Shown here one piece after another: positions 1 to 44,123 of a DNA stretch of 44,123 nucleotides (the stretch's first letter is position 1; every line of letters starts with the position of its first letter). A model generated the notes under the pieces. It saw nothing but the letters and a program-made list of their open reading frames with translations. It was not told the origin of the DNA and made no database searches. Origin of the DNA: Lachnospiraceae bacterium. Lineage in GTDB: Bacteria > Bacillota > Clostridia > Lachnospirales > Lachnospiraceae. The stretch lies in contig JAFTWC010000063.1 in the NCBI GenBank assembly GCA_017465475.1, positions 1 through 44,123 of the forward strand, in the 5' to 3' direction. A program made the position numbers and the translations under genes.

Positions 1-819
1 AAAGAATATACCAAGAAGATTGCAGAGGAAATGCACGTTAAGGGTCTTATGAACATGCAGTACGCAATCGAGAACGGCAAGGTTTACGTGCTTGAGGCAA
101 ATCCGCGTGCATCCCGTACCGTTCCGCTTGTTTCCAAGGTTTGTAACATCCGCATGGTACCGATTGCAACCGATATTATTACTTCTGAGTTGACCGGTCG
201 TCCGTCTCCGGTAGCTGACCTTAAGGAACAGGATATTCCGTACTACGGTGTAAAGGAAGCTGTCTTCCCGTTCAACATGTTCCCGGAGGTTGACCCGATT
301 CTCGGACCGGAAATGCGTTCCACCGGTGAAGTATTAGGACTTGCTCCTTCCTACGGTGAAGCCTTCTACAAGGCGCAGGAAGCTACCCAGTCCAAGCTCC
401 CGCTTAGCGGCACGGTACTTATCTCCGTGAACCGCAAGGATAAGGAAGACATCATCGAAGTTGCACAGATGTTCTCCAACAATGGCTTTAAGATTCTTGC
501 TACCGGCAATACCCACAAGGTAATTACCGATGCTGGCATCGAAGCAGAGCTTGTGAAGAAGCTTTCCGAGGGTCGTCCGAACATCCTTGACATGATTACC
601 AACGGTGATATTGATTTAATCATCAACTCCCCGGCAGGCAAGGACAGCGTAAACGACGACAGCTACCTGCGTAAGGCAGCCATCAAGGGCAAGATTCCGT
701 ACATGACCACCGCAGCAGCAGCAAGAGCTACCGCAAAGGGTATTCAGTCCGTACGTAAGCACGGCAACCGTGAGATTAAGTCCTTGCAGCAGTTGCACAG
801 CGAAATCAAGGATAAGTAA
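1..819 (+). CDS. carB: Carbamoyl-phosphate synthase large subunit, C-terminal part (5' truncated)
   Basis: The reading frame is open from the first base of the window, so the gene starts outside it; about 272 C-terminal residues are present. The first part carries the end of the second ATP-grasp domain, including the typical VLEANPRASRTVPLVSKV stretch. From about residue 135 on (GTVLISVNRKDKED) it carries the MGS-like allosteric domain, with the LATGNTHK and INSPAGK motifs. The family makes carbamoyl phosphate from glutamine-derived ammonia, bicarbonate and two ATP for pyrimidine and arginine synthesis, and the C-terminal domain binds effectors such as UMP or ornithine. It is the last gene of its transcript, since an intrinsic terminator follows 13 bases after the stop. 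It shares arginine metabolism with the downstream argS region, but nothing here shows co-regulation. Confidence 0.96.
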   Translation, partial: KEYTKKIAEEMHVKGLMNMQYAIENGKVYVLEANPRASRTVPLVSKVCNIRMVPIATDIITSELTGRPSPVADLKEQDIPYYGVKEAVFPFNMFPEVDPILGPEMRSTGEVLGLAPSYGEAFYKAQEATQSKLPLSGTVLISVNRKDKEDIIEVAQMFSNNGFKILATGNTHKVITDAGIEAELVKKLSEGRPNILDMITNGDIDLIINSPAGKDSVNDDSYLRKAAIKGKIPYMTTAAAARATAKGIQSVRKHGNREIKSLQQLHSEIKDK

Positions 820-831
820 AATAAGACTTTC

Positions 832-869
832 AAAGGCCATCGCACTAAAACAGTGGGGTGGCCTTTTTT
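832..869 (+). terminator. Intrinsic terminator of carB
   Basis: The stem AAGGCCA/TGGCCTT is followed by a T6 run. It begins 13 bases after the carB stop. The next sequence, immediately after the T-tract, is the dispersed repeat at 870. Confidence 0.85.
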
Positions 870-1008
870 GCGTGCAGGCAAAGTGAGTATGCGAGCAAAC
901 TGCGAGAACTTGTTCTCAGGCAGTTGCGCAGTCATACGAGCGCGCCCACGACCGAGCGACACAAGTCGCGAGGTGTGTGGGTATTGCGCGGAGCGCCAGG
1001 CCTGCACG
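870..1008 (+). repeat. Dispersed structured intergenic repeat, copy 1
   Basis: The element is bounded by inverted termini CGTGCAGGC (871-879) and GCCTGCACG (1000-1008). It holds an internal hairpin around 905-935 (GAGAACTTGTTCTC and flanks) and a conserved core CGCGCCCACGACCGAGCG at 941-958. A second copy lies on the minus strand at 2614-2744; it shares the leading GCGTGCAGGC, the AAGTGAG that follows, the 18-base core and the trailing GCGAGGTG-like segment, while the hairpin loops differ. No coding potential is evident. It could be a MITE-like element or a structured RNA; the conserved core with variable loops is compatible with either. Confidence 0.7.
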
Positions 1009-1448
1009 GAGAGTATTAATAAGTTTTTATAGGACTCTTATGCGAGAACTCCGGGTTTACTCTCCGAAGCGATGGCCGATTAAATCCCGTTATCTACTCT
1101 TTCTTGTCGGATTTTCACTTCTCGGTCATGAGTCGTAGTGAAATACAGCTTGTTTTTCTCAAAACATGTTTTTGGGCGCTTCTTGACCCAAACTCTCTCG
1201 GTTTATCCAAGCAAAAGTTCTTATTCTCATTCACAGAAAAGCGTTTTTTCTCAGTTGCACTTTTTCTCCTATTTTTGAGATACACTTTTCTGTTTTTGTG
1301 GGTCAAAATCCCCCTAAGAAACTTTTCTGAGAAAAAGTCCTTATTTATCAGTATCACGCTATCCTATTTTGTCCTTATTCACTTGTTTTTCTTTCTCAGA
1401 CTAGCCTGAAATAGAACATTTGACCCAACGTCTTTGCTTCTTTCAGCT
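1009..1448. other. Intergenic region without a recognisable gene
   Basis: This is a T-rich stretch on the plus strand between copy 1 of the repeat and the 3' end of trpS. It contains weak internal repetition: GACCCAA or its complement near 1186, 1303 and 1423, and several TTTTTCTCAG-like segments. Open frames of 80-101 codons exist on both strands, but they lack ribosome sites, have low-complexity Phe/Leu/Lys composition and match no family I know. I do not call a gene here. Confidence 0.4.
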
Positions 1449-2513
1449 TTATAATCCAAAATCACTCATTGTATCAAAATAGTTTATCTTCATGGCACGC
1501 TTTACTTCATCCAAGGTTTCTGCTACCAGCTCCCGTGCCGTTTCACTTCCTTTTTTCAATATCTCATATACTGCGGCAATGTCTTTTTCATACTCTTTCC
1601 GCCTTACCCGTATCGGTTCCAATTCTGCCTGTATAATGGAGTTCAGAAATTTTTTGATTTTGACGTCACCCAAACCGCCTCTTGTATAATGTTCTTTCAG
1701 CTCCTCCAGGTTATGGTATTCCGGTAAGTATTCTTTAAAGTGTTCTGTACGACAAAACGCATCCAGATAGGTAAAGACCGCATTTCCCTCTACATGTCCC
1801 GGATCGGATACCTGAATATGCAACGGATCGGTATACATACTCATGATCTTTTGACGGATGTCTTCCGGTTCATCTTCCAAATTAATGCAATTCCCCAAGG
1901 ACTTACTCATTTTCGCTTTCCCGTCGGTTCCCGGAAGTCGCATACAAATACTGTTCTCCGGCAATAATGCTTCCGGCTCCACCAATACTTCACTATAAAT
2001 CGAATTGAACTTCCGCACAATCTCACGGGTCTGTTCAATCATCGGCAACTGGTCCTCTCCCACCGGCACCGTCGTAGCTTTAAATGCGGTGATATCCGCC
2101 GCCTGACTGATTGGGTAACATAAAAATCCGGTGGGTATGCTTTCCTCAAAGTTTCTCAGTTGTACTTCCGCTTTTACGGTAGGATTCCGATGCAACCTGG
2201 CTACACTTACCAGATTCATATAATAAAATGTAAATTCCGTAAGCTCCGGAATCTGCGACTGAATAAACAAGGTGGATACCGCCGGATTAAGTCCTACCGC
2301 CAAATAGTCCAATGCCACTTCAACAATGTTTCTCCGAATTTTTTCCGGATTATCAAAGTTATCGGTCAACGCCTGTGCATCCGCAATCATAATCAGCACC
2401 TTTTCAAATTCCCCGGAATTCTGCAACTCCACCCGTCGCTTTAACGAACCCACATAATGTCCCAAATGTAATCTCCCGGTGGGTCTGTCACCTGTTAAAA
2501 TAATTTTGCTCAT
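1449..2513 (-). CDS. trpS: Tryptophanyl-tRNA synthetase
   Basis: The 354-residue class Ic aminoacyl-tRNA synthetase charges tRNA-Trp with tryptophan in the cytoplasm using ATP. The HIGH-type motif HLGH is at residues 17-20 after GDRPTGRL, and the KMSKS loop is at 201-205. Length is slightly above the common 330-340 residues. The ATG is preceded by AAGGAGG at suitable spacing. Upstream in its direction of transcription is a leader with a Trp-type T-box (2745-2972), so expression is predicted to rise when uncharged tRNA-Trp accumulates. Between the T-box terminator and the start codon lie about 230 bases that contain copy 2 of the dispersed repeat. No downstream gene is co-transcribed, as the next gene (carB) is convergent. 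Confidence 0.97.
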   Translation of the reverse strand: MSKIILTGDRPTGRLHLGHYVGSLKRRVELQNSGEFEKVLIMIADAQALTDNFDNPEKIRRNIVEVALDYLAVGLNPAVSTLFIQSQIPELTEFTFYYMNLVSVARLHRNPTVKAEVQLRNFEESIPTGFLCYPISQAADITAFKATTVPVGEDQLPMIEQTREIVRKFNSIYSEVLVEPEALLPENSICMRLPGTDGKAKMSKSLGNCINLEDEPEDIRQKIMSMYTDPLHIQVSDPGHVEGNAVFTYLDAFCRTEHFKEYLPEYHNLEELKEHYTRGGLGDVKIKKFLNSIIQAELEPIRVRRKEYEKDIAAVYEILKKGSETARELVAETLDEVKRAMKINYFDTMSDFGL

Positions 2514-2613
2514 AAATAAGCCTCCTTCTGCTGTGTATTTATTTTATGATTTACATAAAACAAAACCGGCTTTTAAGGGAAGCATGTAATACGATGGAAA
2601 ACATAATCTCTCA

Positions 2614-2744
2614 CATGCAGGCGGTGCTTCGCACCTCCCCCGCACCTCGTGGCATAGCCGCTCGGTCGTGGGCGCGTTCGCATACTCAGAGAGTTTTGAA
2701 AATAAGTTTTCAAACTCTCTTCTATGCTCACTTAGCCTGCACGC
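2614..2744 (-). repeat. Dispersed structured intergenic repeat, copy 2
   Basis: Read on the minus strand it starts GCGTGCAGGC directly after the T-tract of the T-box terminator and ends with GCCTGCATG. The core CGCGCCCACGACCGAGCG (2659-2676) is identical to that of copy 1. An internal hairpin GAGAGTTTGAAAA/TTTTCAAAACTCTC takes the place of the copy 1 hairpin, and the GGTGCGAAGCACC hairpin lies near the far end. The copy is inside the trpS leader, on the sense strand, and would be transcribed only when the T-box reads through. Confidence 0.7.
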
Positions 2745-2784
2745 AAAAAATGAAAAGACTTCTGCCCCAAAAGGACAGAAGTCT
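2745..2784 (-). terminator. T-box-controlled terminator of the trpS leader
   Basis: On the minus strand the stem AGACTTCTGTCC/GGGCAGAAGTCT is followed by TTTCATTTTTT. It lies just 3' of the T-box sequence, as expected for the competing terminator of a transcriptional T-box. Confidence 0.85.
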
Positions 2785-2972
2785 AAAATTCTGTGTGCCA
2801 CCTAATGAGCTCCGTACCAACATACGGTTCCTGTGTTACGGTCAGGATTATCCGTCAACGCCTACTCGCGGTAAAAGCTTTCGGGTTGCCCTCATAAGTC
2901 CATTCATTATAATTTGAATTATCGCCTTCTCACCATCGGCAACTCTCTTTGAATTCGCTATTATAATTACTC
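2785..2972 (-). promoter_or_regulatory. Trp-specific T-box leader of trpS
   Basis: On the minus strand the leader shows the stem I landmark AGAGAGTTGCC with a GGTGAGAAGGC distal segment. The 3' side of the specifier loop reads GAATGGACTTATGAGGGC; the in-line codon TGG (complement of 2900-2902) specifies tryptophan. The T-box sequence reads TTAGGTGGCAC, with the TGGC bulge at 2797-2800 that would pair with the 3' GCCA end of tRNA-Trp, whose discriminator is G. Uncharged tRNA-Trp is therefore predicted to stabilise the antiterminator and allow trpS transcription. Stem boundaries are approximate because no folding was run. Confidence 0.88.
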
Positions 2973-3008
2973 CTCTTAATCAACGGTTTGTATTATGAAA
3001 TTTTCATA

Positions 3009-3037
3009 AGTGTATCATAAAGCAAATTAAAAATCAA
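3009..3037 (-). promoter_or_regulatory. Candidate promoter of the trpS leader
   Basis: Minus-strand TTGATT (3032-3037), 17-base spacer and TACACT (3009-3014) lie about 35 bases before the first T-box landmarks. The hexamers are imperfect, but the position fits. Confidence 0.5.
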
Positions 3038-3208
3038 GTTCTTTCGCCTAAATGAACACCAAAAATTTTCAGAACCTATTTTCTGAACCTCGCACTTCAT
3101 ATTTACAATCCCCTTCATTCTATTCCTTTCCCAATTTGCCGGACACTGTCTGGCGAATAAAAACAACCGTCCGTTGCAAAATCCACCCTTAGCTATACTT
3201 CGCGGTTC

Positions 3209-12134: not shown

Positions 12135-13664
12135 TTATTCTTCCCCGTTATTCACTGCTTCTTCCATTTCCTTCTGAACTTCTGCGTCATAAGAAAGCAC
12201 CGGTGTTACGTCTTTGCCCTTAATCTTACGATCCACATAATTACGTACAATCTTAATCAGTACCGGAGAAAGAACTACCACACCGATTAAGTTCGGAATC
12301 ATCATCATACCGTTAAAGGTATCGGAAATATCCCATGCAATGGAGGAGCTCATGAGCGCACCACTGACTACCAAAAGTACGAAAAATACCTTATATACCT
12401 TCACTGCCTTCAGTCCGAATAAGTACTCTACCGCCTTACTGCCGTAATGAGACCAGCCAAGTACGGTAGTAAATGCAAACAATAACATTGCGATTGCAAT
12501 GAACCACTCTCCCGGCATTCCGAATACATTTCCGAAAGCCTTCGCAACCAAGGTCGCATCGTCAGTGCCCGCTACCGCAAGACCGGTTTCCAAATCAATG
12601 GCACCGGAAGAAAGCACCACAACAGCGGTCATGGTACATACGACCATGGTATCTGCGAACACTTCGAAGATACCCCACATACCCTGCTTTACCGGTTCCT
12701 TTACATTGGAGTTGGAATGTACCATAACGGAAGAACCGAGGCCTGCTTCGTTAGAGAATGCTCCACGCTTACAGCCCTGTACAATTACAGTTTTAATTGC
12801 CACGCCGGCAACCGCACCGCCGACTGCCTTGATACCGAAAGCAAACTTAAAGATGGAACCGATAATCGCACCGATATCACCGATATGTACAAAAAGAATT
12901 ACCAAACATCCTACCACATACGCTATCGCCATAAACGGAACCACACGCTCTGCTACCGCTGCAATGCGCTGCAAACCGCCAATGATAATCAGGGCAGCAA
13001 CTACCATAAGTACAAGACCAATAATCAGTGCAATCAAAGAAGCATCGCCCACTACCGTCGGAGCCTCAACATTCTTAAAGAATGCGGATTCTACATTAAT
13101 AACGATTTTATTAATCTGACCCATGTTACCGATACCGAAGGATGCCAAAATCGCACAGATTGCAAATATAATTGCAAGCACCTTACCCACAATCTTGCAT
13201 CCTTTCATTTTTCCCAAACCGTCCTGCAGATAGTACATCGGACCGCCGGACCACTCGCCCTGCTTATTTCTGCGGCGATAATAAATACCAAGTACATTTT
13301 CAGAAAAGTTGGTCATCATACCTAAAAATGCCATAATCCACATCCAAAATACCGCTCCCGGACCACCGATCACGATGGCTGCTGCCACACCGGCAATATT
13401 ACCGGTACCGATGGTGGCTGCCAGTGCTGTACAAAGTGCTTGGAACTGGGATACAGAACCCTTTTCCTTCTTCTGTGCGTCCTTCTTAAATACGCTTACA
13501 ATGGTCTTCGTCCACCAGTGCTTTAAATGACTGATTTGGAATACCTTGGTTACAATCGTTGTGAGAAGACCTGCACCGATTAATAAAATCAGTCCCACCT
13601 GTACCCACACGAAATCGTTGACCTTACCGTTGATTTCGGTAAGAAGCTCCATAAAGCCTTTCAT
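12135..13664 (-). CDS. Sodium:alanine/glycine symporter (AGCS family)
   Basis: The 509-residue membrane protein has about 10-11 hydrophobic segments and the AGCS signatures: the N-terminal FQALCTALAATIGTGNIAGVAAAIVIGGPGAVFWMW region, GGPMYYLQDGLG, and the central GCKRGAFSNEAGLGSSVMVHS. The family imports alanine or glycine with sodium. The leader carries a glycine riboswitch whose 3' end touches the ribosome site GGAGG, so glycine is the likeliest substrate in this cell. It is a single-gene transcript ended by a terminator. C-terminal tail is acidic (EEAVNNGEE). Confidence 0.94.
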   Translation of the reverse strand: MKGFMELLTEINGKVNDFVWVQVGLILLIGAGLLTTIVTKVFQISHLKHWWTKTIVSVFKKDAQKKEKGSVSQFQALCTALAATIGTGNIAGVAAAIVIGGPGAVFWMWIMAFLGMMTNFSENVLGIYYRRRNKQGEWSGGPMYYLQDGLGKMKGCKIVGKVLAIIFAICAILASFGIGNMGQINKIVINVESAFFKNVEAPTVVGDASLIALIIGLVLMVVAALIIIGGLQRIAAVAERVVPFMAIAYVVGCLVILFVHIGDIGAIIGSIFKFAFGIKAVGGAVAGVAIKTVIVQGCKRGAFSNEAGLGSSVMVHSNSNVKEPVKQGMWGIFEVFADTMVVCTMTAVVVLSSGAIDLETGLAVAGTDDATLVAKAFGNVFGMPGEWFIAIAMLLFAFTTVLGWSHYGSKAVEYLFGLKAVKVYKVFFVLLVVSGALMSSSIAWDISDTFNGMMMIPNLIGVVVLSPVLIKIVRNYVDRKIKGKDVTPVLSYDAEVQKEMEEAVNNGEE

Positions 13665-13675
13665 AAAAAATCCTC

Positions 13676-13765
13676 CTGTCCTTTTGCCTGAGAGATCGGT
13701 GCCCCTTCTTACGTCACCTTACACCTTCGGCGTTCATTTGTAATGAATCTCTCCAAGAATGTGTG
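13676..13765 (-). promoter_or_regulatory. Glycine riboswitch (single aptamer)
   Basis: The minus strand shows the conserved glycine aptamer segments in order: CTTGGAGAGA, GAACGCCGAAGG, GGGGCACCGA and TCTCTCAGGCAAAAGGACAG. Only one aptamer is present. A small hairpin GTGTGT-AAAA-ACACAC lies directly 5' (13761-13775), where singlet glycine riboswitches are known to have a 'ghost' partner. The aptamer runs into the GGAGG ribosome site, 7 bases before the symporter ATG. There is no terminator between aptamer and start, so control of translation initiation is the likely output. The direction (on or off) is not visible. Confidence 0.9.
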
Positions 13766-13781
13766 TTTTACACACAGTAAG

Positions 13782-20144: not shown

Positions 20145-20172
20145 ATATTGCAAAAAAACTAACATATTGTGC
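20145..20172. promoter_or_regulatory. Direct repeats, candidate AraC-type operator
   Basis: ATATTG followed by CAA occurs at 20145-20153, and ATATTGTGCAA at 20164-20174. The starts are 19 bases apart, in the divergent region between the GH51 and AraC-family genes. AraC-type proteins often bind direct repeats with such spacing. The remaining divergent region (20054-20330) shows no other clear signal. Confidence 0.35.
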
Positions 20173-20330
20173 AATCTTTCTTTTTGTGTTATTCTGAAGA
20201 AAAGCGATTGTATTTTCAACAAATGCCGTATTCATCCCATGTTTACCTCTTTTTACCGGCATCCGCCTTTAAAAAGGGCATATTAACAAAACGCATATGT
20301 GTATTTTATGATTCACAGAAAGGAATTCTT

Positions 20331-21101
20331 ATGTACATAGAAAAAATGGGCTACCACCACACCCACGATGCTTCCTTCCATATTGACCGGCCCTTCGGCT
20401 CCGGAAACTGGCTTTTGCTTCTTGTATTTACCCCGTCCCGCCTTGTCCTTAACGGTGCAGAGCGTACCACCTCAGAACCTTACTTCATTTTGTACAATAA
20501 CGGCACTCCGCAGCATTACGGTGCCACCGACACCGACTATACCGATGACTGGGTTCATCTGATTTTTAACGAACGGGATTTGGCTCACTTAAAGGAACTG
20601 GGAATTCCCTTTGATACCCCTGTATTTATCAAAAACATGGAACAGCTTTCCAAACTTTTGGAATCCATGTCCTATGAATTCCATTCCCCTCACCCTTTAA
20701 AGCAGGAGAATTTGACATTGTATCTCCGCTTATTTTTTAACTACCTGAGCGAGGAATTTGAAGCAGTCAAACATCGGGACCCTCATTTTCTTTTATTTAA
20801 CCGTATCCGAAGCCAGATGTACAACGAGCCTTATCTGTACCATTCTCCGGACGAACTGGCAAAGGAAGCGGGCCTTAGCCGTTCCTCCTTCCAGCACATT
20901 TACCGTAAGCTCTACGGCACTGGGGTCATTGCGGACCTGATTCGTGCCCGCACGGAATACGCTTGTTATCTTCTATCCTCCACCACCCTGCCGGTGTATC
21001 AGATAGCGGACACCTGCGGCTATCACAGTGAAATCCATTTTATGCGGCAGTTTAAGGAGCAGACAGGAAAGACCCCGACAGAGTATCGGAAAAGTATGTA
21101 A
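20331..21101 (+). CDS. AraC-family transcriptional regulator
   Basis: The 256-residue protein has an N-terminal cupin-like ligand domain (residues 1-140; FILYNNGTPQHYGA) and a C-terminal pair of helix-turn-helix motifs (about 165-256; SPDELAKEAGLSRSSFQHIYRKLYG and LPVYQIADTCGYHSEIHFMRQFKEQTGKTPTEYRK). The start at 20331 follows AAAGGAA; longer upstream reading frames have no ribosome site. It is divergent from the GH51 arabinofuranosidase gene and is likely to activate it in response to an arabinose-containing sugar, an inference from context only. The argS promoter begins 9 bases after its stop. Confidence 0.9.
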   Translation: MYIEKMGYHHTHDASFHIDRPFGSGNWLLLLVFTPSRLVLNGAERTTSEPYFILYNNGTPQHYGATDTDYTDDWVHLIFNERDLAHLKELGIPFDTPVFIKNMEQLSKLLESMSYEFHSPHPLKQENLTLYLRLFFNYLSEEFEAVKHRDPHFLLFNRIRSQMYNEPYLYHSPDELAKEAGLSRSSFQHIYRKLYGTGVIADLIRARTEYACYLLSSTTLPVYQIADTCGYHSEIHFMRQFKEQTGKTPTEYRKSM

Positions 21102-21110
21102 AAAAAGTAC

Positions 21111-21139
21111 TTGCATTCTTTTTCATTCCGTGTTATGAT
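21111..21139 (+). promoter_or_regulatory. Promoter of the argS leader
   Basis: TTGCAT (21111-21116), a 17-base spacer and TATGAT (21134-21139). Transcription would start near 21146, 25 bases before the leader peptide ATG. Confidence 0.75.
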
Positions 21140-21170
21140 ACACCTAAAATTTTCCGAAAGGACAACTGCT

Positions 21171-21227
21171 ATGAATATTTTCTTACAGAACAGCTTAAGA
21201 CGCAGACAGAGACGTATGCTCTTGTAG
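21171..21227 (+). CDS. Arg-rich leader peptide of argS
   Basis: An 18-codon frame reads MNIFLQNSLRRRQRRMLL, then TAG. AAAGGA (21157-21162) lies 8 bases ahead of the ATG. Five of codons 10-15 specify arginine (AGA CGC AGA CAG AGA CGT), placed just before a set of competing hairpins and an intrinsic terminator, and upstream of arginyl-tRNA synthetase. This is the hallmark arrangement of ribosome-mediated attenuation: scarcity of Arg-tRNA would stall the ribosome on these codons. The codons use both AGR and CGN boxes, so the stall would report several arginine tRNAs. Confidence 0.82.
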   Translation: MNIFLQNSLRRRQRRMLL

Positions 21228-21304
21228 CCTTGTGAATTATCGCACGGTTGCAAGAGAGTACGTCTTGTTGCCGTGCGGTGCTGTGATAACATTCATAGAT
21301 ACAT

Positions 21305-21349
21305 AGAACCGCAACGGATTTCGCAGATGCGAGCCTTGCGGTTCTTTTT
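21305..21349 (+). terminator. Intrinsic terminator inside the argS leader
   Basis: The stem AGAACCGCAA/TTGCGGTTCT with a 21-base loop is followed by T5. It lies 80 bases before the argS ATG, so it must be overcome for argS expression. Confidence 0.85.
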
Positions 21350-21428
21350 GTTTGTGAAGTCCGGTCATGCCATCTGCGATTCCGCGTTGCTTTTGCCCCT
21401 TTCAAATATCAAACTTAGGAGGTTTCTT

Positions 21429-23171
21429 ATGAAAACAACACTTTGTAACCACATCGCAACCGCACTCCCGGACAGTTCCGCAGACATCATTGCCGACCTC
21501 TTGGCAGTACCGCCGGAAGAATCCATGGGGGACTTCGCCCTGCCTTGCTTTTCCTTTGCCAAAGCCTTGCGAAAAAGTCCGGCACTGATTGCAGAAGATA
21601 TCAAGTCTGCTCTTTTGCCGGATTTAACCACACTGGGTGTCGACCGTATTGAAACCGTAGGCGGATACTGCAACTTCTTTTTTGACCGTACCGCTTACGC
21701 AAAAGACTGTCTTTCCAATATGCAGACCGATACTCTAGGAGTTGACCGACCGGGCGCCGGCAAAACCATATGTATGGACTACTCTTCTCCCAACATTGCC
21801 AAAAACTTTCATGTAGGGCATTTGCGCACTACTGTCATCGGTAATTCTCTGTACAAAATTTTTGATAAACTGGGTTGGAATGTGGTTCGTATTAATCACT
21901 TGGGCGACTGGGGTACCCAGTTCGGAAAACTCATTGTTGCATACAAGCTTTGGAGCAGCAAAGAACAGGTAGAAGAAAAGGGAATCGAAGAACTGCTTCG
22001 GATTTATGTAAAATTTAATGCGGAAGAAAAGGTGCATCCGGAGCTTACAGAAGACGCTCGGGCTTGGTTTGTAAAAATGGAGCAAAACGACCCGGAGGCA
22101 CTTTCCTTCTGGAATTGGTTCAAGGACATCAGTATGATTGAATTTGAGCGGGTCTATGACCTGCTTCACATATCCTTTGACTCCTACACCGGTGAGAGCT
22201 TTTTCCGTGAAAAAGTCCCGACACTGGTAAAGGAACTCATCGAAAAAAACCTCCTTACGGAAAGCCAAGGAGCCAAAATCATCGACCTGTCCGCCTATGA
22301 TATGCCGCCGTGCCTTATCCTAAAAAACGACGGTGGCTCCATCTATCACTCCCGGGACATTGCAGCAGTTCTGTACCGGAAAGAGACCTATAACTTTGAC
22401 AAATGTCTCTATGTTACAGGTCTCGAACAAAGCTTACACTTTAAACAAGTCTTTCAAGCAGTAAAGCTAATGGGGTATGACTGGACGGATTCCTTAGTAC
22501 ACATCCCGTACGGCTTGGTAAGTCTCGGCGGCTTGAAGCTTTCCACCCGCGGCGGACATATCATCTACGCAGAGGACATCCTAAAGGAAGCCATTTCCCG
22601 TGCTCTTTCCGCCATTGAAGAGAAAAATCCGAACCTGCAAGACAAAGAATCCGTGGCACGGATGGTAGGCGTGGGTGCCGTTATTTTCCACGACCTCTTT
22701 AATCAGCGTATCAAAAACGTAGAATTCTCCTGGGATGAGGTCTTAAGCTTTGACGGCACCACCGGTCCTTATGTCCAGTACACCTGCGCCCGCGCAAAAA
22801 GCGTATTGCGAAAAGGCAACTTCTACTCCGATATCGCCGGTATTGTCGATACCGCCGCTGCCACAGCAGAAGACACACTTGCAGGAATTGATTGTTCCGT
22901 TTTCACCGACGATACCAGCTATACCTTAATCAAGACACTGTCCGGTTACAACGATGCGGTACAGGCCGCTGCCGAACGCTACGAGCCCTCCGTGATCGCA
23001 CGGTATCTTATCTCCGTCGCCGCCGCTTTCAATAAGTTTTACCATGAGTGTTCTATTCTGCACGCAGAAGACCACGAGAAAAAGGCTCGTCTTGTTCTGA
23101 CGGATTTGGTACAAAAGGTGCTGACGGACGGATGCGGACTTTTGGGGATGGAGTGTCCGGAGGAGATGTAG
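21429..23171 (+). CDS. argS: Arginyl-tRNA synthetase
   Basis: The 580-residue class I synthetase charges tRNA-Arg in the cytoplasm. The N-terminal tRNA-binding domain (residues 1-105) is followed by the catalytic core. That core carries the HIGH motif HVGH at 128-131 within SSPNIAKNFHVGHLRTT, the NHLGDWGTQFGK segment, and a degenerate KMSKS loop LSTRGGH. The C-terminal helical anticodon-binding domain (from ~460) ends with RLVLTDLVQKVLTDGCGLLGMECPEEM. Start at 21429 follows TTAGGAGG; the frame extends upstream into the leader but without a ribosome site. Expression is predicted to be controlled by the Arg leader peptide and terminator upstream rather than by a T-box, which is absent. Confidence 0.97.
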   Translation: MKTTLCNHIATALPDSSADIIADLLAVPPEESMGDFALPCFSFAKALRKSPALIAEDIKSALLPDLTTLGVDRIETVGGYCNFFFDRTAYAKDCLSNMQTDTLGVDRPGAGKTICMDYSSPNIAKNFHVGHLRTTVIGNSLYKIFDKLGWNVVRINHLGDWGTQFGKLIVAYKLWSSKEQVEEKGIEELLRIYVKFNAEEKVHPELTEDARAWFVKMEQNDPEALSFWNWFKDISMIEFERVYDLLHISFDSYTGESFFREKVPTLVKELIEKNLLTESQGAKIIDLSAYDMPPCLILKNDGGSIYHSRDIAAVLYRKETYNFDKCLYVTGLEQSLHFKQVFQAVKLMGYDWTDSLVHIPYGLVSLGGLKLSTRGGHIIYAEDILKEAISRALSAIEEKNPNLQDKESVARMVGVGAVIFHDLFNQRIKNVEFSWDEVLSFDGTTGPYVQYTCARAKSVLRKGNFYSDIAGIVDTAAATAEDTLAGIDCSVFTDDTSYTLIKTLSGYNDAVQAAAERYEPSVIARYLISVAAAFNKFYHECSILHAEDHEKKARLVLTDLVQKVLTDGCGLLGMECPEEM

Positions 23172-23274: not shown

Positions 23275-24084
23275 TTACTCAAGTTCTTTCTCATCAAAAA
23301 ACGCACATATTCCTTCTACTGCTTCTTCTATAGGAATCTCCAACCAATTTTTATCTGATTTCTTTACATTCTCTATATACCGTTTATTATCAAATATGAA
23401 TCTTAAACGATTTCTAATGTCAAAAATATCATTTTCCCTCATACCGGAATCTTCATATATGTATACTGCAAGACACTTCTTCAATTCACTAACCGACACC
23501 AAATCCTTCAAATACGTAATGTCAAATACATCTTTAAATCTCGTAGAAAAGAAACCGAACTTTAATAGCGAACGTAACTTTTCTGCAAGCATCTGCTCCA
23601 TTGAATTAACCAACAGACTGGCCCCATCCTCTTGAATACATACATCAAAGCAGTACTCTTCTTGTTCAATCCGGAGTTGCTTATGCACACCTAAATCAAT
23701 TTTACTTTTTACCACATTTCCGAACAAATCCCGGATTATTACATCAACACGTTTCCCATGATACTCTTGTTGGTTGAGTTCTTCAAACGCACCGACGGAT
23801 TGTATCGTAATTCCGTCTACACAATTCATTTTTTGTATAAACCTCTTTATGAATTCATCTTCTAAAGAATACCGAATAAAGTCAATATCTATATCCTGCG
23901 TAGCTCGTCTGATATTACCGGTAACACTACGCATTACAACACCACCCTTTATCGTAACATTACGACTTAAGGAACTGTTTGCGATTGCCATCAAAATAAT
24001 ATCCTGACAGACACGTGCTTCCGCATTTTTTCTGGAATATCCTTCTCCTACAAATCTCTCTACCCAATCCCTAATGTTATACAC
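23275..24084 (-). CDS. AbiEii-type nucleotidyltransferase toxin
   Basis: The 269-residue protein has the nucleotidyltransferase signature of AbiEii/AbiGii toxins: GGVVMR near residue 47 and the metal-binding TQDIDIDF near 62, followed by a helical C-terminal half with MLAEKLRSLLKFG. The family transfers nucleotides to tRNA or other acceptors and provides phage defence or plasmid maintenance with AbiEi. Start codon is GTG, and its first base is shared with the stop codon TAG of the upstream antitoxin gene; GGAGGTG lies within the end of that gene. This points to translational coupling, which keeps the toxin from being made without the antitoxin. Confidence 0.9.
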   Translation of the reverse strand: MYNIRDWVERFVGEGYSRKNAEARVCQDIILMAIANSSLSRNVTIKGGVVMRSVTGNIRRATQDIDIDFIRYSLEDEFIKRFIQKMNCVDGITIQSVGAFEELNQQEYHGKRVDVIIRDLFGNVVKSKIDLGVHKQLRIEQEEYCFDVCIQEDGASLLVNSMEQMLAEKLRSLLKFGFFSTRFKDVFDITYLKDLVSVSELKKCLAVYIYEDSGMRENDIFDIRNRLRFIFDNKRYIENVKKSDKNWLEIPIEEAVEGICAFFDEKELE

Positions 24085-24626
24085 TAGAACACCTCCGACT
24101 CCAAACGTTCCATAATCTTGTTACTCTTCGGAAAAGCCGCTGCCATCTCCTGCACTTCCTGAATATCCAACTCGTTTACCAGCTTTCTGTATCGTCCGAT
24201 AATCTCTTTGTAATAATCATAAGGCAGTTTTGACTTATTTCGTACAACTTCAATCAGCATACGCTCCTTACTGTAAATCTTAATCTCATAGCCAATCTGC
24301 TTCTCCCTTACAACTCCCAGTTCTACCACTTCCTTTGGCAAGAAACACTGCTTTACACGTTCATCCTTCATCTTAGAAGCATCCCGATCCGTTGCCAAAT
24401 GGGAATAATCCGGAATTGTATCTGTCAGACCATAATGATAAAATGCACTATCCATCGTTAAAATGGCGTCCGGATATTTTTTCGCAAGAATTTCTTCCTC
24501 TGTTGCGTATTGCCTGTCCGAATATATCCCTTTTTCTAATTGAAAAAACTCACCTTTCTCAATTACTTTACGCATTTGATAATCTGACCCATATTTCTCT
24601 ATACACTCTTGATAAGTATATAACAT
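24084..24626 (-). CDS. AbiEi-type antitoxin
   Basis: The 180-residue protein has an N-terminal winged helix (YQECIEKYGSDYQMRKVIEKGEFFQLEKGIYS) and the AbiEi core (YPDAILTMDSAFYHYGLTDTIPD, followed by an endonuclease-like/DUF region with the basic EIKIYSKERMLIEVVRNKSKLPYDYYKEIIGRY). AbiEi proteins repress their own promoter by binding inverted repeats and neutralise AbiEii. The gene overlaps the toxin start by one base. An intact promoter lies 60 bases upstream. Confidence 0.88.
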   Translation of the reverse strand: MLYTYQECIEKYGSDYQMRKVIEKGEFFQLEKGIYSDRQYATEEEILAKKYPDAILTMDSAFYHYGLTDTIPDYSHLATDRDASKMKDERVKQCFLPKEVVELGVVREKQIGYEIKIYSKERMLIEVVRNKSKLPYDYYKEIIGRYRKLVNELDIQEVQEMAAAFPKSNKIMERLESEVF

Positions 24627-43730: not shown

Positions 43731-43804
43731 TGTACGTGAGAAGATTCGAACTCCCGACACCTTGGTCCGTAGCCAAGTGCTCTATCCAGCTGAGCTACAC
43801 GTAC
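43731..43804 (-). tRNA. tRNA-Arg (anticodon ACG)
   Basis: Minus-strand cloverleaf with acceptor GTACGTG/CACGTAC, anticodon arm CTTGG-CTACGGA-CCAAG (anticodon ACG) and T arm CGGGA-GTTCGAAT-CTTCT-like. Discriminator A; CCA is not encoded. It is the last tRNA of the cluster. Confidence 0.94.
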
Positions 43805-43839
43805 ACACAACATTAAGTTGTTTGCAGTAAAACTGCAAA

Positions 43840-43925
43840 TGCCGCAGACCGGAATCGAACCGGTACGGGAGATTAGTCCCGCAGGATTTTAAGTCCTGTG
43901 CGTCTGCCAGTTCCGCCACTGCGGC
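43840..43925 (-). tRNA. tRNA-Leu (anticodon TAA)
   Basis: Minus-strand class II tRNA with acceptor GCCGCAG/CTGCGGC, anticodon arm CAGGA-CTTAAAA-TCCTG (anticodon TAA), the long variable arm of tRNA-Leu and T arm CCGGTTCGATTCCGG. No CCA encoded. Confidence 0.95.
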
Positions 43926-43970
43926 ACAGTCTTACTAATGTAAGTACTTGATGAATCCCTAAGGATTCGA

Positions 43971-44043
43971 TGGGGCCTATAGGGCTCGAACCTATGACCC
44001 TCTGCTTGTAAGGCAGATGCTCTCCCAGCTTAGCAAAGACCCC
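43971..44043 (-). tRNA. tRNA-Val (anticodon TAC)
   Basis: Minus-strand cloverleaf with acceptor GGGGTCT/AGGCCCC (one G-T pair), anticodon arm TCTGC-CTTACAA-GCAGA (anticodon TAC) and T arm ATAGG-TTCGAGC-CCTAT. No CCA encoded. Confidence 0.93.
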
Positions 44044-44063
44044 CCAAAAATTATATAAAAACA

Positions 44064-44123
44064 CGACCCAGATGGGACTCGAACCCACGACCTCCGCCGT
44101 GACAGGGCGGCGCTCTAACCACC
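44064..44123 (-). tRNA. tRNA-Asp (anticodon GTC), 5' end outside the window
   Basis: The 3' 60 bases are present: D-arm end, anticodon arm CCGCC-CTGTCAC-GGCGG (anticodon GTC), T arm TGGG-TTCGAGTC-CCA and 3' acceptor CTGGGTC with discriminator G. The 5' acceptor strand lies beyond the window end. Confidence 0.92.

Follow-up and report, generated by a model that had tools for sequence, protein, structure and literature searches.

The window, that is, the whole stretch of 44,123 nucleotides of Lachnospiraceae DNA that was analysed, carries a leader region (21111-21349) between an araC-type gene (20169-21101; PF12833) and a gene for arginyl-tRNA synthetase (ArgRS), here called argS2. The leader combines a promoter, an 18-codon open reading frame (ORF), a set of alternative hairpins and a terminator, and its end is separated from the start of argS2 by about 80 nt. 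The coordinates of the single features are reported in Table 1. Elsewhere in the window, a glycine riboswitch aptamer (13666-13766, minus strand; 56.8 bits) immediately precedes a gene of the sodium:alanine symporter family (12135-13664), and a cluster of four tRNA genes occupies positions 43731-44123 (minus strand), the last gene being cut by the end of the window.

Table 1. Features of the argS2 leader and of the gene that follows it; positions refer to the window.
Feature	Position	Strand	Description
Promoter (putative)	21111-21139	+	TTGCAT (21111-21116), 17-nt spacer, TATGAT (21134-21139); read from the sequence
Probable ribosome-binding site of the leader ORF	21157-21162	+	AAAGGA; sequence
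Leader peptide ORF, MNIFLQNSLRRRQRRMLL	21171-21227	+	18 codons, stop TAG
First Arg block, proposed sensing stall site	21198-21206	+	AGA CGC AGA, codons 10-12; conservation, constrained folds
Second Arg block	21210-21215	+	AGA CGT, codons 14-15; A-site position where the predicted fold of the window flips to the terminating state
Segment 1	21210-21229	+	pairs with 21246-21265 (1:2); paired cells over 24 leaders: 96.4 and 99.1% for the two helices counted
Segment 2	21240-21265	+	partner of segment 1 through its 3' part, and of segment 3 through TCGCACGG and GCAAGA
Segment 3	21263-21285	+	pairs with segment 2 (terminating), segment 4 (antiterminator) or the peptide-coding region (untranslated)
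Segment 4	21302-21317	+	pairs with segment 3 in the antiterminator; also forms the terminator's left arm
Intrinsic terminator (4:5) with T run	21305-21349	+	terminator scan; 84.5% of cells paired in 24 aligned leaders
argS2 ribosome-binding site	21417-21422	+	AGGAGG; sequence
argS2, auxiliary arginyl-tRNA synthetase	21429-23171	+	580 aa; ATG at 21429; TIGR00456, 464 bits (cut-off 262)

A preliminary description of the locus had placed a promoter, a ribosome site and a terminator ahead of argS, and all of them are present in the sequence, although no promoter was returned at the leader by a simple sigma-70 consensus scan: the -35 hexamer fits TTGACA in just three of six positions, and a TG lies one base 5' of the -10 element. 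Purine-rich sites resembling AAAGGA, as judged by eye, were also seen 5' of other leader ORFs. As for the pairing segments, the limits given earlier for segments 2 (21241-21265) and 3 (21263-21285) were retained, whereas segment 1 was found to pair over 21210-21229, and segment 4 extends to 21317 rather than to 21314.

The 18-codon peptide with five Arg codons in six positions (codons 10 to 15), also reported in the preliminary description, was confirmed at 21171-21227. The chance of such an Arg density in a random 18-codon ORF is about 9e-6, a post hoc value calculated with an Arg frequency of 4.2%, as derived from 25 large ORFs of the window. Stronger evidence than this single-ORF value is provided by a control on gene sets, in which short ORFs were collected from the 420 nt upstream and the first 30 nt of each gene (a shorter region for locus L019). 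At least four Arg codons in six were found upstream of all 17 argS2 genes preceded by the leader, of none of 22 argS2-type genes lacking it (three of the 25 available being left out), and of three of 18 argS genes of the housekeeping type; when at least five were required, the corresponding figures were 13 of 17, 0 of 22 and 0 of 18. The Arg run is above background.

Other leaders were collected by a DNA search, by a covariance model (R1) built from 12 leader cores and by a pattern scan of named genome contigs, which combined yielded 26 distinct loci. The DNA search gave matches in 10 of 61 genomes, nine of them leaders, while the matches of the remaining genome (G047) fall inside argS. With R1, leaders were detected in 10 of 397 genomes of the family and, class-wide, in one of 391, that of the window itself; searches over more than 40 genomes were run with the stricter filters of Infernal, so that weaker leaders may escape. 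The pattern scan produced 18 loci, in contigs titled Lachnospiraceae (16), Acetatifactor sp. (1) and Clostridium sp. (1), 11 of which are the same places as loci found otherwise. An R1 match at G001:C154, corresponding to an unrelated hairpin with no ORF, and the minus-strand R1 matches, which are mirrors of the same hairpins, were left out of the counts. A phage origin of the leader was considered and rejected, as the pattern has 0 exact matches in viral_contigs. No family of Rfam 15 matched the leader, the best score being that of Thr_leader (16.1 bits, against a gathering cut-off of 55).

The gene following the 26 leaders is an intact argS2 in 17 cases, a methyltransferase gene in five (L022-L026), an argS2 remnant in two and something else in two. 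One of the remnants (L020) comprises about the last 30 codons. The other (L068) has lost its middle, with 34 codons left at the start (E to about 1e-5) and, probably, 10 at the end (a weak match, E about 0.3); a search for argS2 pieces at E 1e-3 found none in this locus, and only a more sensitive one recovered the ends. At L055 (G377:C1, 4861-7469), a diverged leader, MLSLTLSQLRRRDRRKHL, with its terminator, lies ahead of a BlaI/BlaR1-type gene pair (PF03965, PF05569), in a genome that also carries a leader-argS2 unit. At L003, the leader is followed by a transposase gene on the other strand, presumably ISL3-like. The latter locus (807-3119, G000:C26) is a second copy of the araC-leader arrangement in the assembly of the window itself, with the transposase in place of argS2; since the araC-type gene of this locus and that of G003 share 87% identity, the copy may come from a related strain, as a contamination, instead of a duplication.

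Twenty-four leaders were aligned (alignment A3), L003 and the truncated L072 being left out. The conservation of Arg codons envisaged in the preliminary description is borne out: the ORF is intact in 23 leaders, with lengths varying by whole codons (17-19), and these keep in frame six (five leaders), five (thirteen) or four (five) Arg codons, while three are found in the frameshifted L068. The first block reads Arg-Arg-Arg in 19 of the 24 and Glu-Arg-Arg in the five leaders of methyltransferase genes. The usual peptide motif is NSLRRR..RRxLL before argS2 and NSLERREE(E)RRLL before the methyltransferase; the leaders L053-L055 deviate from NSL. Over the 24 leaders, Arg is encoded by AGA (66), CGC (23), CGT (23) and AGG (6); the use of both the AGA/AGG and the CGN families would be in keeping with a sensor that monitors Arg charging as a whole.

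The mutually exclusive pairings that had been proposed together with the terminator are kept in the same 24 leaders: paired cells amount to 95.7% for 3:4 and 98.5% for 2:3, besides the values for 1:2 and for the terminator helix (84.5%) listed in Table 1. When the partner strand was slid by 1-3 columns, only 31-53% of the cells were paired, against the 95.7-99.1% observed for 1:2, 2:3 and 3:4. Compensatory changes, expected earlier, do occur but are few, as both sides changed at four pairs of 1:2 (alignment columns 46, 47, 48 and 52) and at one pair of 3:4 (column 110). Helices 1:2 and 3:4 were also compared with 500 letter shuffles: neither the observed pairing level (96.9%, against 95.7% in shuffles) nor the observed covariation score (0.168 against 0.143) was reached by any of them, while the number of pair types was matched by 72. 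For 2:3, the pairing level was matched by 101 of 500 shuffles and no pair changed on both sides. As the letters of the leader core hardly vary, the shuffle control is weaker and the covariation support for the helices is thin. A further fold, with segment 3 bound by the NSL-RR codons, is predicted for the leader when it is not translated; it is paired at 83.1% overall and at only 45.8 and 72.0% in its outer helices, and in it the letters CGCA of these codons (columns 31-34) are paired with segment 3 in 24 of 24 leaders.

The same conservation bears on the view that the leader is a relic or the product of chance, a decayed and functionless element upstream of argS2. Copies lacking an intact argS2 do exist, before the remnants of L020 and L068 and the transposase gene of L003, but the leader core stays near invariant while argS2 proteins drop to 60-61% identity, and helices and ORF are kept together. 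Random loss of Arg codons or pairings in genomes that keep argS, mentioned earlier as a sign against attenuation, is the opposite of what was seen: the sole frameshifted leader (L068) stands before a broken argS2, devoid of its middle. The relic view can hence scarcely be credited.

The effect of ribosome position was analyzed by constrained folding, assuming that the ribosome covers 18 nt on the 5' side and 12 nt on the 3' side of the first A-site base; pair probabilities were computed for transcripts ending just past segment 4. With the A site on the first codon of the first Arg block, 3:4 has a probability of at least 0.5 in 23 of 24 leaders, and in the lone exception (L018) a shifted pairing is predicted, with segment 4 still occupied. 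With the A site at the stop codon, 2:3 is obtained in all 24. These folds reproduce both arms of the switch as first proposed, namely that a stall on the Arg codons gives 1:2 and the 3:4 antiterminator, and a finished peptide 2:3 and the terminator. When the ribosome was walked codon by codon, 3:4 was at 0.5 or above in 19-24 of the 24 leaders from three codons before the Arg block to its codon +3, and the crossover from 3:4 to 2:3 fell at codons +4/+5, about the second Arg block. A ribosome placed 4-7 codons upstream also yields 3:4, in 11-13 of 20-24 leaders, so the predicted 3:4 pairing is not specific to a ribosome at the Arg block.

In the absence of a ribosome, 3:4 stays below 0.5 in 19 of 24 leaders and reaches 0.55-0.90 in five (those of the window, L017, L019, L024 and L051), for a transcript ending at segment 4; as the window is among these five, the outcome without translation is uncertain for its own group. 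In the full-length transcript of the window, the terminator is part of the minimum-energy fold in three of three states (no ribosome, ribosome at the first Arg codon, ribosome at the stop codon). Since the terminator wins thermodynamically, the switch would have to be kinetic, decided before segment 5 is made; known attenuators also decide antitermination before the last segment of the terminator is made.

Taken as a whole, the locus is best read as a ribosome-mediated transcription attenuator, in which the leader peptide would sense the charging of Arg-tRNA and induce a second, auxiliary ArgRS, a reading to which we give a probability of roughly 0.85. With plentiful Arg-tRNA, the ribosome would run to the stop codon and cover segment 1; 2:3 would then form, segment 4 would be left to the terminator, and argS2 would be off. 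If charged tRNA-Arg became scarce, by arginine shortage or by impairment of the housekeeping ArgRS, the ribosome would stall at the first Arg block; 1:2 would form, the freed segment 3 would take the left arm of the terminator (3:4), and the polymerase would enter argS2. Without translation, the peptide-coding region could pair with segment 3, favouring termination in most members. This chain is supported by comparative and folding evidence, all of it computational; stalling, termination and induction in cells, as well as the biological reason for a backup enzyme, are inferred. In the gut Lachnospiraceae concerned, the switch is probably turned on by ribosome stalling on Arg codons, in which case the spare ArgRS would be made only when charged arginine tRNA is low.

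The leader could also be a general sensor of translation rate, in which any slow ribosome antiterminates and the Arg codons are kept mainly for the letters that pair with segment 3. The invariable pairing of the CGCA codon letters in the untranslated fold agrees with this, as does the 3:4 favoured in about half of the leaders by a ribosome well upstream of the Arg block. However, ORF lengths change by whole codons and the reading frame of the Arg codons is preserved in 23 of 24 leaders, synonymous CGC/CGT changes are found in L052, L053 and L055, and no pairing was seen that demands Arg-Arg in the second block, all of which makes a rate sensor highly improbable.

The gene controlled by the putative attenuator is a second, auxiliary ArgRS gene, distinct in sequence from the housekeeping one. 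The genome of the window contains, at G000:C77, a housekeeping gene (argS1) without the leader, whose product is 31% identical to that of argS2 (TIGR00456, 430 bits). Of the 397 genomes of the family, 358 have argS1 (E up to 1e-120) and 33 have the argS2 type (E up to 1e-100); the two coexist in eight, which are exactly the eight argS2 genomes with the leader. The remaining 25 argS2 genomes, all leaderless by R1, have no argS1, the argS1 query finding just their argS2 at 26-33% identity. By adding three genus members and six named MAGs to the eight family-sample genomes, the regulated synthetase was found beside a leaderless housekeeping copy in 17 of 17 genomes, and R1 had no match in the 18 argS1 loci searched. 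The 17 leader-bound argS2 proteins form one clade, with support 100/100, so that the 17-to-0 association probably goes back to a single event, maintained through deep divergence, rather than to repeated independent events.

Outside the family, 24 genomes of other families of the order (within the sample of 61) include 19 with the argS2 type (E <1e-120), two with only the other type and three with no match. One of the 19 (G049) has both ArgRS types, and its argS2 locus has no R1 match. In a plausible history, argS1 took over the housekeeping role from argS2 in most Lachnospiraceae, and a single lineage retained or regained argS2 as an inducible spare. Remnants of argS2 were found in G016 (with an intact leader), G004 and G808, by which the gene looks dispensable. 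A more speculative extension, possible but on the whole doubtful, would make argS2 a conditionally expressed, inhibitor-insensitive backup: an agent present in guts or rumens would block the housekeeping ArgRS or tRNA charging, and the leader would sense the fall in Arg-tRNA whatever its cause, inducing argS2 and, in some species, a methyltransferase/acetyltransferase pair belonging to one regulon with it.

This pair is part of the second main context of the leader. In the METHYLTRANSFERASE branch, a variant leader precedes a gene for a SAM-methyltransferase of 260 aa (PF08242, PF13649) in five genomes (L022-L026); the matches of this protein among PDB sequences are generic methyltransferases. 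The methyltransferase is present in six of 10 sampled genus members, five of them with the leader in front. In the sixth (G009), the locus has the same flanks as in G001 and misses a block of 288 bp, comprising promoter, leader and terminator; the block (L026:6014-6301, compared with the reverse complement of L162) is present in one species and absent in the other between the methyltransferase gene and a gene that we take to be mnmA-like. Its clean absence between the same flanks makes the promoter-leader-terminator unit look like a discrete cassette. In four of the five loci, a GNAT-type acetyltransferase gene follows the methyltransferase, as identified by Pfam for L024 and by 78-86% identical neighbours in L022, L023 and L025. 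Some of the genes behind the leader thus show no evident connection with arginine, which counts against the Arg-sensing reading.

Macrolides are an example of drugs that arrest nascent chains at R-x-R motifs, which the RRR and RR of the leader peptide resemble; for this reason, a leader sensing a ribosome-targeting drug instead of Arg-tRNA charging was considered, with argS2 and the methyltransferase as a drug response. The largely conserved N-S-L and L-L flanks would fit such a leader, as would the second target, a methyltransferase gene mostly followed by an acetyltransferase gene. It is not favoured, and we hold it to be improbable, since the main target is ArgRS itself, a direct product link for an Arg-codon sensor, and Arg codons of both families are kept. 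Moreover, the methyltransferase scores 20 bits with the Erm model, far under its cut-off of 320.

For a sensor of Arg-tRNA charging, the working principle would be that of a leader-peptide attenuator of the his/trp kind. The preliminary description had stressed that the three-switch chain differs from the classical trp layout; it is indeed unlike trp, but resembles the leader of the enterobacterial his operon, where the position of a stalled ribosome selects the antiterminator from a series of alternative hairpins. The his leader serves another amino acid and other genes, and in the present case the peptide-coding region also pairs with segment 3; sequence kinship between the two was compared by the Rfam scan only. 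As an auxiliary synthetase under attenuation, the nearest precedent appears to be trpRS1 of Streptomyces coelicolor, an antibiotic-resistant TrpRS that Vecchione and Sello are said to have placed, in 2010, under ribosome-mediated transcriptional attenuation. Reportedly, trpRS1 is likewise a second, divergent synthetase beside the housekeeping one; the two systems differ in amino acid (Trp, here Arg), in lineage (Actinobacteria, here Lachnospiraceae), in the antibiotic resistance of trpRS1 and in the second gene type sharing the leader here. Salmonella speF reportedly has an arginine-sensing leader ORF with a different output.

In Bacillota, tRNA charging is better known to be read by T-boxes, which bind the tRNA directly, without a leader peptide. 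T-box control of the argS2 of the window was rejected, as RF00230 has no match in the window at gathering score, nor in 21050-21430 at E up to 5; among other argS loci, T-boxes were found in 0 of 20 and 0 of 20 in two source sets and in one of 20 in a third (L099, from another family of the order), so that the scanned argS loci of the Lachnospiraceae themselves gave no T-box. In PMC2494555, a T-box is assigned to one of the three argS genes of B. cereus ATCC 10987. Such a T-box senses tRNA charging and controls an argS gene, as proposed here, but without a leader peptide. According to PMC1262725, classical leader-peptide attenuators act on the synthetase genes trpS and leuS of Streptomyces and pheST of gamma-proteobacteria, which differ from the present locus in amino acid, lineage and fold; the same paper reports no conserved RNA structure upstream of the arginine operons of Actinobacteria, and T-boxes for arginine genes in other species. 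Within Bacillota, PMC13009471 describes a short ORF of S. aureus, rbfL, with two Arg codons, which senses arginine limitation, as proposed for the argS2 leader, and covers the rbf ribosome-binding site, thus acting on translation, with neither a terminator switch nor ArgRS. PMC9437257 is a review on antibiotic-insensitive second synthetase genes, in whose text ArgRS is absent and arginyl-tRNA synthetase occurs once, in a reference. A literature search on ArgRS attenuators, Lachnospiraceae included, found no attenuated argS, most subscription journals being outside its coverage.

If correct, the proposed attenuator would be arginine-specific and placed on an ArgRS gene in Bacillota, in contrast to T-boxes, and would be another example of leader-peptide control of an auxiliary synthetase. 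One would then ask which conditions in gut or rumen reduce the charging of Arg-tRNA so frequently that an inducible spare ArgRS is maintained. The RNA family, having no Rfam 15 match, could be used for finding the rest of the regulon, the methyltransferase gene being the first other candidate.

The surroundings of the two synthetase genes contain further elements. An AbiEi/AbiEii toxin-antitoxin pair (23275-24626, minus strand; PADLOC, 254 and 388 bits) adjoins the 3' end of argS2 in the window. Copies 96% identical lie near argS2 in G007 (L018), and a search of the 15 further argS2 loci, several with short flanking sequence, gave no match. Among related nucleotidyltransferase toxins, some act by preventing the charging of tRNA. 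Candidate TwoAYGGAY RNAs are located in the argS1 loci of G007 and G004 (L108:3693-3859 and L112:3803-3967, respectively).
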